Positions 40,536 through 43,746 of a stretch of DNA of 43,746 bases are shown in pieces. The notes under the pieces are model-generated. The model made no database searches and was not told the DNA's origin. It saw only the letters and a list, made by a program, of their open reading frames with translations. This DNA comes from Nitrosopumilus sp. Its GTDB lineage: Archaea > Thermoproteota > Nitrososphaeria > Nitrososphaerales > Nitrosopumilaceae. Made by a program: the position numbers and the translations under genes. The stretch covers positions 1 to 43,746 of the forward strand of contig NZ_JAILWA010000012.1 of the NCBI RefSeq assembly GCF_025699255.1, read 5' to 3'. Numbering within the stretch: the stretch's first letter is position 1; every line of letters begins with the position of its first letter.

Positions 40536-41669
40536 TTAGGAAATTTCACTTCTGAGCTTTTTTGTGACTGTTCCTTCTATGTTGTCAAACAAAATGATCA
40601 TTTTTTCTTTGTTGTCTATTAGATAATCTACTCCTCTATCTTTTAATCTGATTTTCCATAATCTGATTTCTCTATGTTCATCAAAGAAATTTTCTATCAT
40701 TTGTTCACCTGATTTTTTTGGGTCAATGAATTCTTCAAAAATTTCAATCGTTTTATCAACATCTTCCTCATCAATTGCTTCTTTAACTGATTGTATTGCT
40801 TGACTTAACTGTTTTAAATTCTTCACTGGTTTTGGCAATGTTTTTTTGGTAATTCCAAACAATCCTTTCTTTTCTTTACCAATCTTTTCTGCAATGTTGT
40901 CTGCAAGATCATAAACTGGGATTTTACTTAAGCCATCTCGTTTTTCATTTTGAACAATTAGTCCTTTCTCTAACAATTTCTTTAATGCTGTTTCTGCATC
41001 AACTTTGTCTAGAAATGTTGTCCAAACAATAGCACCTAATGTATGGTATCCTTGCCTAATTGATTCCAACACTACTACTTCTTCAATTCTTTTGAACCCT
41101 TCTTCAATTCTTACATTCATGAAATCTTTATCTCTAATTGACTTTCTTGCATTTTTGACATCAATTTCGATTGAACGTTTTAGTGATTCTAGTGCTTCGG
41201 GAACTTGATTTAACAATGATAAGAAACAAGCTTGATTGTACCATGCCATTCCATATGTTGGATCTGATTCTATTGCTTTCTGTGATGCATCAAGTGCTTT
41301 TGCATAATTTTTTTGTTCATAATGCACCAATCCCTTAAGATTCCAAGCTTCTGGGTTTGTTACATCTATATCTAAAATTTTATCATACACTTTTAGGGCT
41401 TCTGGATATTCATCTAAGTGGAATCTCGCATATCCTAATTTCATTAATGTTTCAACATTATCTGGATCAATTCGTAATGCTTGCTCAAAAATTTCTATGG
41501 CATCTTCTAATTTCTCATCTGCCATGAGGTTGACTCCTTTTTTGAATAATTTTTTACGATTATAATCAATATCTACTAGACTACGTTCTTGTGGGATGGT
41601 TTCGGTGGATTTTGATTCTTCTGCCGTCTTCTTATTTTCCTTTGATTTTCTACCAAATGGTTTCTTCAC
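40536..41669 (-). CDS. TPR-repeat protein with C-terminal winged-helix-like part
   Basis: A 377-residue protein. A charged ~35-residue N-terminal tail precedes four TPR units (e.g. KLEDAIEIFEQALRIDPDNVE, EALKVYDKILDIDVTNPEA, KALDASQKAIESDPTYG). After them is a short helical region, TFLDKVDAETALKKLLEKGLIVQNEK (winged-helix-like), then GLFGITKKTLP and a final DEHREIRLWKIRLKDRG. Scaffold or regulatory role likely; function unknown. It is convergent with the rhodanese gene and divergent from the collagen-like gene. Confidence 0.78.
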   Translation of the reverse strand: MKKPFGRKSKENKKTAEESKSTETIPQERSLVDIDYNRKKLFKKGVNLMADEKLEDAIEIFEQALRIDPDNVETLMKLGYARFHLDEYPEALKVYDKILDIDVTNPEAWNLKGLVHYEQKNYAKALDASQKAIESDPTYGMAWYNQACFLSLLNQVPEALESLKRSIEIDVKNARKSIRDKDFMNVRIEEGFKRIEEVVVLESIRQGYHTLGAIVWTTFLDKVDAETALKKLLEKGLIVQNEKRDGLSKIPVYDLADNIAEKIGKEKKGLFGITKKTLPKPVKNLKQLSQAIQSVKEAIDEEDVDKTIEIFEEFIDPKKSGEQMIENFFDEHREIRLWKIRLKDRGVDYLIDNKEKMIILFDNIEGTVTKKLRSEIS

Positions 41670-41770
41670 AGCTCAATTATCTGTTTTATCTAGATAAATA
41701 CCAACCTTAATTGAGCCTACTACTAATCCTAAATTTCTAATAGATTCATGCGATCTAAATACAGAAATAC

Positions 41771-43426
41771 TTGAAATATACACAAACGATTGTGTCATCT
41801 CAGCCACGATTAGAGATTCAAGGACAGGCACCATTCAAGCAATCTGGTGTATATGAGGCTCAAATTGCTATTGTTGATAATAAACCGACTGATGAGCAAA
41901 TTCGGACAAAACAATTTTCATCTTTGTGGCGAGGAAATTTTCATCTTAGAGTAAAAGATGGAATATTTTCTGAAACTCTAGGTTCTACTACAAACCCTCT
42001 TCCTACATCTATTACTAATCTTGACAAAGTTTGGATTGTTGTCACTGACTTGTTTTCTTCCTTACATACTGTATTTGATATTCCATTGACAAAATCTTCC
42101 ACATCTGAAACAATATCTGAACCAAAAACTGAATCTGTTTCTAATCCAAAAACAATTTCTGATGGCCCTTCACCTAAACGTTCTAACCCCAAGATTTCTA
42201 CATCTGGTCCTAGCGGTCCACCCGGCGACAAAGGTTCTACTGGTCCACAAGGTCCACCCGGCGACAAAGGCCCCTCTGGTCCTCCTGGTCCACAAGGTCC
42301 ACCTGGAACTAAAGGCCCTGAAGGTCCACAAGGTCCACCCGGCGACAAAGGTTCTACTGGTGACAAAGGTCCACAAGGTGACAAAGGAATTTCTGGAGAT
42401 AGAGGATTAACTGGCGATAAAGGGATTACTGGCGATAAAGGTGATAAAGGTGACAAAGGAATTTCAGGTCCACCCGGCGACAAAGGTGAAAAAGGTGCAA
42501 CTGGTCCAATTGGCGACAAAGGCCCTAGTGGATTAAAAGGTCCAATTGGCGACAAAGGTGAAAAAGGTCCGACAGGACCTGTTGGTGAAAAAGGTGCAGG
42601 TGGATTAAGAGGTGTCCCTGGTGAAAAAGGCGACAAAGGTCCGCAAGGTGTTCCTGGTGATAAAGGATTAACTGGTCCGACTGGTCCCCCCGGTGAAAAA
42701 GGACCTACTGGATTATCTGGTGTTCAAGGTGAAAAAGGCATTCAAGGAGGTCCCGGTCCAATTGGCGACAAAGGCCCTAATGGTCCACCCGGCGACAAAG
42801 GCCCTATTGGCCCTCCCGGTCCCCATGGTGATAAAGGATTAACTGGTTCTAATGGTCCAATTGGCGACAAAGGCCCTATTGGCCCTCCCGGTCCAATTGG
42901 TGAAAAAGGAAACAAAGGAACAGAAGGTCCAATTGGTGAAAAAGGCCCACAAGGCCCACAAGGTCCAGCTGGCTCTAAAGGATTAACTGGAGTACCTGGC
43001 CCACAAGGTGAAAAAGGTGAAAAAGGCCCTAATGGTCCAATTGGTGAAAAAGGACAAACTGGTCCACTTGGCGCTCCCGGCGACAAAGGCCCACAAGGCC
43101 CACAAGGCTCACAAGGAGAACGAGGAACAACTGGTCCTTCTGGTGAAAAAGGCCCACAAGGCCCACAAGGAATCCAAGGCCCACAAGGAGAACGAGGTCC
43201 AACTGGTCCAATTGGTTCTATTGGCGAGCAAGGCCCTGTAGGCGGTCAAGGCCCTGTAGGTCCTCCTGGTCCTAGAGGTCCTCCTGGTCCACCAGGTGAA
43301 AAAGGCCCTGCAGGTGGAGTCTCATCCGAACAAAAAGCACTTCTAAAAGATTTGTTGGAAATACTTACAAGCAAAGACATTATCACCACTGAAGAACAAA
43401 TCAAATTGATGAGTTATCTTTATTGA
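41771..43426 (+). CDS. Collagen-like triple-helix protein
   Basis: A 551-residue protein starting at TTG. Residues 1-145 form a globular domain of unknown family ending in a Ser/Thr/Pro-rich linker. Residues 146-515 are 123 uninterrupted Gly-X-Y triplets, dominated by GDK, GEK, GP(I/S/T/P) and GPQ. The charge pairs K-G-E and K-G-D can stabilise a triple helix without hydroxyproline. The C-terminus (residues 517-551, [28 protein letters not shown]) looks like a short trimerising or SHOCT-like helix. No signal peptide is obvious, so whether it is exported is unclear. Confidence 0.88.
42206..43315 (+). repeat. Collagen Gly-X-Y coding repeat
   Basis: Nine-base-periodic GC-richer block inside the collagen-like gene; many near-identical words such as GGCGACAAAGG and GGTCCAATTGG recur, which would allow slippage or recombination. 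The frames opened on the opposite strand (Pro-rich) are by-products of this periodicity. Confidence 0.85.
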
Positions 43427-43680
43427 TAAATAATACATTTATTTTTAAAATTTTTTCATCGTAAATTATTTCTGATTTTAGATCTTGTGATGTTTTTCAT
43501 TTTTTAATCTTTTTATCAACTTCAACACAAAGATTTTTTCTATTTTTATTTGAAGCTAAACTGTTTCAATATTTTTCACATGGTGACTAAAATGTTTTTT
43601 AAAATATCTAGTTTCCACTAAAGAATTTAGAAAAATGAAAACAATTCGCCTGCTTGACGATTGTTAGTATGTTGAAGAGA
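43427..43680. other. Intergenic region, nothing recognised
   Basis: 254 bp of AT-rich sequence between the collagen-like gene and the basic-tail gene, both ending here (convergent). No credible reading frame, repeat or RNA was seen; several T-runs could act as terminators. Confidence 0.6.
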
Positions 43681-43746
43681 TTATCGTCTTCTTGCTGCCT
43701 TTCTCTTTGGAGCTGCTTTTTTAGTTGCAGTTTTTCTCTTTGGAGC
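43681..43746 (-). CDS. C-terminal tail of a Lys/Arg/Ala-rich protein (5' end outside window)
   Basis: On the minus strand the last 66 bases read APKRKTATKKAAPKRKAARRR then a stop, open to the window edge. The repeated AAPKRK is typical of histone-H1-like or other nucleic-acid-binding basic tails. Identity beyond that cannot be judged from 21 residues. Confidence 0.6.
   Translation of the reverse strand, partial: APKRKTATKKAAPKRKAARRR

Follow-up and report, generated by a model that had tools for sequence, protein, structure and literature searches.

Descriptions of prokaryotic collagen-like proteins usually present them as surface proteins with a patchy distribution. Among them are the LPXTG-anchored streptococcal adhesins Scl1 and Scl2. 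BclA-type exosporium proteins and the collagen-like phage tail fibers are rods that carry no Sec signal and are assembled from the cytoplasm. Bacterial collagens fold without hydroxyproline (PMC8968730), and in a 2015 count, 14 of the sequences in the Pfam collagen family were archaeal (PMC4565658). Among the Nitrosopumilaceae, proteins named "LPXTG-anchored collagen-like adhesins" were reported to show high expression at low salinity, one of them being detected in the "Ca. N. chungbukensis" proteome, and a surface role was assumed in that study (PMC13037477). Beyond this paper, we found no other mention of a Nitrosopumilaceae collagen-like protein in a search of the non-subscription literature, and an earlier description is therefore possible.

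Here, we describe a collagen-like gene from Nitrosopumilus sp. that lies in a window of 43,746 nucleotides, which is the entire contig 12 of the source genome (1.65 Mb, 99.5% complete). In contrast to the patchy pattern described above, it is a near-universal, single-copy, and syntenic gene. The collagen-like protein is real, conserved, and specific to the Nitrosopumilaceae, some members of which are very abundant in the ocean, and it combines private end domains with the absence of an export signal. It scores below the cut-offs of both NCBI models for the Scl-type LPXTG-anchored adhesins (NF038329, 217.6 vs. 325 bits; NF038330, 174.5 vs. 400 bits). Since the model of that name matches the source protein below its cut-off, PMC13037477 may have seen this same protein under what is, in this case, a misleading automatic name.

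The gene, its repeat, and its end domains

The earlier note had placed a collagen-like protein in an ORF from 41771 to 43426. The ORF exists, lies on an archaeal chromosome as had been proposed, and does carry the repeat, but the true start codon is further downstream. The TTG at 41771 sits inside a conserved A/T-rich promoter element, whereas the GTG at 41792 (position 8 of the same ORF) aligns to an ATG in many orthologs, a number of which also have in-frame stops upstream of the aligned start. Thus, we assign the gene and its parts as follows.

41757 to 41772, plus strand: TATA-box-like element AAATACAGAAATACTT, a conserved promoter 20-35 nt ahead of the start codon
41792 to 43426, plus strand: collagen-like protein gene (544 aa, GTG start; PF01391 at 2e-58)
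41795 to 42100, plus strand: N-terminal head, ~102 aa, beta-sandwich (ortholog alignment; AlphaFold2)
42101 to 42205, plus strand: S/T/P/K-rich linker, variable in length between orthologs
42206 to 43321, plus strand: Gly-X-Y repeat, 124 triplets without interruption, unbroken in 73 distinct complete orthologs
43322 to 43423, plus strand: C-terminal cap, 34 aa, two short helices (alignments; AlphaFold2)

In nearly all of 27 orthologs drawn from many genera, the start is preceded at ~20-35 nt by an A/T-rich, AAATACAgAAATACTT-type element, and transcription of the gene is likely to be leaderless. Within the source genome, whole-protein searches matched the collagen gene alone. At the far end of the window (43661 to 43746, minus strand), we also read by eye the final part of a basic protein that is very rich in Lys, Ala, and Arg (...KKAAPKRKAARRR) and is truncated by the contig end.

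The repeat matches the Pfam Collagen family model with 194.5 bits against a cut-off of 27.2. It had been counted as 123 perfect triplets, a long uninterrupted run that we confirmed, although 123 is reached only if the last triplet, GGV, is left out. In the source protein, the X positions are occupied by P (44%) and D/E (29%) and the Y positions by K (29%), Q (15%), and P (15%), the commonest triplets being GDK (19), GPP and GPQ and GEK (13 each), and GPI (10). A richness in K-G-D/E pairs had been proposed as well, but KG[DE] is in fact depleted, at 5.6 per 100 triplets vs. 8.4 expected across 66 orthologs (three KGD and three KGE in the source protein). The charged motif is instead GDK/GEK, with within-triplet G[DE][KR] enriched to 27.3 per 100 triplets vs. 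10.2 expected in the same 66 orthologs, 62 of which also have a GPPGPPG adjoining the cap.

Each of the 73 distinct complete orthologs contains a single run (68-163 triplets, median 122), such that the broken repeat in relatives that the earlier note had named as a refutation was seen in none of them. Because Gly replacements within a run are uncountable by construction, the relevant test is the lack of any second run of at least 4 triplets. Among equal-length orthologs, X/Y identity is 0.61 in register vs. 0.15-0.27 when shifted, while the Gly codons of the seventeen orthologs with exactly 124 triplets differ silently 2057 times in pairwise comparisons. The single unbroken run in all 73 orthologs and the in-register X/Y identity together exclude a chance origin of the repeat. 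Separately, the ortholog of one single-contig genome (G041; L097, C1:38000-54000) contains a stop and apparent frameshifts that split it, reflecting either sequencing error or a decaying gene. The repeat is also highly hydrophilic and a collagen-like protein of a relative has been linked to hypo-osmotic growth (PMC13037477), as might be expected of a soluble protectant or crowding protein in which the composition of the repeat matters rather than a triple helix. A disordered protein would tolerate breaks in its repeat, however, whereas here the Gly of each triplet is kept without exception in 73 orthologs, X and Y are conserved in register, and both protein ends are strongly conserved. We therefore regard a protectant as quite improbable.

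The distinct N-terminal domain and the helical C-terminal cap that had been noted from the sequence were both supported. The head has invariant G, P, E, W, H, F, D, and S positions in the ortholog alignment and is modeled by AlphaFold2 as a beta-sandwich with pLDDT 91.7 and pTM 0.83. The cap is predicted to form two helices and its C-terminal ending is near-invariant across orthologs; the models of both domains are single-chain. The head occurs once per genome and the cap as one strong copy per genome (20 genomes checked for the cap). No match to the head was obtained in Pfam or PDB sequences or above noise in PHROGs, nor at E ≤ 0.001 in fold searches. Bacterial relatives of the head were considered and set aside, given its lack of Pfam and PDB sequence matches and the non-significance of its fold matches. 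The cap likewise has no Pfam match. By eye, a SHOCT domain had been suggested for the cap, but 18 caps gave no SHOCT match at E up to 10; according to the SHOCT paper, moreover, experiment did not support oligomerization (PMC3581485). As judged by sequence, the head and cap are private end domains that match no known family.

Distribution and gene neighborhood

A search of ammonia-oxidizing archaeal genomes for the N-terminal domain, as the earlier note had suggested, found the head in 206 of 250 Nitrosopumilaceae genomes, in 122 of the 131 good genomes, and in all 22 sampled genera. In a profile search of 400 genomes of the order, the head was present in 192 genomes from 22 of 66 genera, which equals the genus count of the Nitrosopumilaceae, and none of the matches listed fell in another family. 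Named loci encoding the head belong to Nitrosopumilus, Nitrosarchaeum, and further records of the same archaeal group. Of the 166 genera in a phylum sample, only 31 have a collagen repeat of whatever type, with the Nitrosopumilaceae near-saturated. Thus, the statement that collagen-like proteins are rare in archaea holds for archaea at large, but not for this family.

Ten apparent absences in good genomes were examined via the TPR gene that neighbors the collagen gene. In three genomes (G013, G130, and G219), the TPR gene lies ~0.2 kb or less from a contig end on the collagen side; in two (G157 and G170), the TPR gene is itself cut off; and in G206, a collagen fragment without the head ends at a contig edge. 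All six are consistent with assembly breaks in the repeat. Three further genomes (G127, G093, and G095) are without both the TPR and collagen genes. Only G028 (L139, C20) has cleanly lost the collagen gene from its place between the TPR gene and the gene that comes next in the conserved order, with the TPR gene followed by what translate as apparent protein-isoaspartate methyltransferase and Hsp20 genes. From this loss, we can conclude that the collagen gene is not essential everywhere.

The neighbor itself is arranged divergently:

40536 to 41669, minus strand: TPR protein gene, sharing a common 122-bp promoter region with the collagen gene

The order of a sulfite/nitrite-reductase-type gene, a rhodanese gene, the TPR gene (minus), and the collagen gene (plus) is retained in nearly all of 20 loci from ~18 genera. 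Other families of the order have the TPR protein as well, without the collagen gene, and it is therefore older and not an obligate partner of the collagen. Co-evolution of the two was accordingly rejected, the shared promoter region being their only link.

The fiber-like anatomy without a signal peptide could also suggest a viral or mobile-element fiber that was domesticated in the ancestor of the Nitrosopumilaceae, as collagen-like phage fibers similarly lack signal peptides and as tail proteins of phages and archaeal viruses are among the weak and non-significant fold matches of the head. This origin seems rather remote to us, considering that the chromosomal position is fixed beside metabolic genes and that no relative of the head was found by a pattern scan of 2.9 million viral contigs or in phage or plasmid records.

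Cellular location and proposed assembly

The absence of an evident signal peptide, noted at the outset for the source protein, was borne out across the inspected orthologs, which have neither a signal peptide nor a hydrophobic N-terminus by eye or hydropathy scan. Hydropathy scanning and inspection likewise revealed no membrane helix in the orthologs, their most hydrophobic stretch being a strand of the head, and there is no LPXTG in any of 66 orthologs. With no export signal, the collagen probably either acts within the cell or is assembled from its interior, a location call that is based upon the absence of known signals by eye and hydropathy scan. This absence is not general to Nitrosopumilaceae collagens. 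In another genus of the family, a 2518-aa ORF (L152; G222:C1:1246000-1260000, minus strand) encodes a giant secreted collagen-like protein with a signal peptide, an A/D/K-rich region, and 559 perfect Gly-X-Y triplets in one run, and ORFs of 1189 aa (L153, G136) and 525 aa (L156, G217) both combine clear signal peptides with short Gly-X-Y runs. A different repeat was observed in a DnaK-like protein (L159; G097:C57), in which about nine GAEGQQ repeats form a C-terminal tail.

Most characterized prokaryotic collagen-like proteins are found on the surface or in the exosporium (PMC8968730), and the expressed "collagen-like adhesin" in the proteome of a Nitrosopumilaceae strain was discussed as S-layer-associated (PMC13037477). 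Hence, the protein could be a cell-surface or extracellular adhesin or stalk that leaves the cell by a route needing no cleavable signal peptide. We consider this unlikely, because its orthologs lack a signal peptide, membrane anchor, and LPXTG, whereas the secreted collagen-like proteins of the same family have clear signal peptides. Our tentative reading, which we hold with less than even confidence, is of an intracellular collagen, a trimeric rod of ~100 nm that serves as a core structural or spacing element within marine ammonia-oxidizing archaea, the cells of which are very small. On the same tentative reading, the rod would have been fixed in the ancestor of the Nitrosopumilaceae and kept in nearly all members.

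Building upon the observed anatomy, end-domain models, conservation, synteny, and lack of export signals, we infer a homotrimeric collagen-like rod, synthesized and most likely kept or assembled at the cytoplasmic side of the membrane, a proposal for which we see about even chances. Three chains would be brought into register by the 34-residue helical cap and the adjacent GPP-rich stretch, after which the triple helix would zip up from the C-terminal end toward the N terminus, as animal collagens do. The helix may be stabilized without hydroxyproline by proline in the X position and by Asp/Glu-Lys pairs within triplets. At 0.286 nm per residue in a collagen helix, the product would be a stiff rod of ~106 nm for the source protein and 58-140 nm across orthologs, displaying three beta-sandwich heads on a flexible linker. 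If the heads bind one conserved partner, as we propose, the molecule would function as a fixed-length spacer or scaffold.

Two modifications were considered and rejected. Prolyl hydroxylation was set aside because the 2OG-Fe(II) oxygenase family PF13640 is absent from the source genome. A lysyl oxidase homolog (PF01186; L161, G000:C2:103657-104040) is present there, but it has a signal peptide and is probably secreted, and its occurrence across the order is sporadic, with 14 of 221 genomes having it, among them G028, which lost the collagen gene. It is therefore unlinked to the collagen, which argues against cross-linking by this enzyme. Thus, the prolyl hydroxylase and lysyl oxidase partners of an animal-type modified collagen do not accompany this protein. 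A cytoplasmic location would mean that collagen is used here as an internal scaffold, while an exported protein would point to an export route not yet recognized in these archaea.

Comparison with described collagen-like systems

The secreted proteins L152, L153, and L156 share Gly-X-Y runs and the same archaeal family with the core collagen, but they differ in having a signal peptide and different flanking domains. Like Scl1 and Scl2, the archaeal protein has a long, uninterrupted, and charged Gly-X-Y region with no need of hydroxyproline, as well as a separate terminal domain that presumably nucleates trimers. It is unlike them in lacking a signal peptide and LPXTG, in its sub-cut-off score, and in its unrelated head, and the presumed nucleator is C-terminal in the archaeal protein rather than N-terminal. 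As in BclA and the phage fibers, no Sec signal was seen in the inspected archaeal orthologs. These archaea differ in having neither spores nor virion genes, and no particle genes were seen in the neighborhood of the collagen gene. The head and cap are also unrelated by sequence to those of BclA and the phage fibers, in which the place of the 34-aa helical hairpin that caps the archaeal protein is taken by a jelly-roll.
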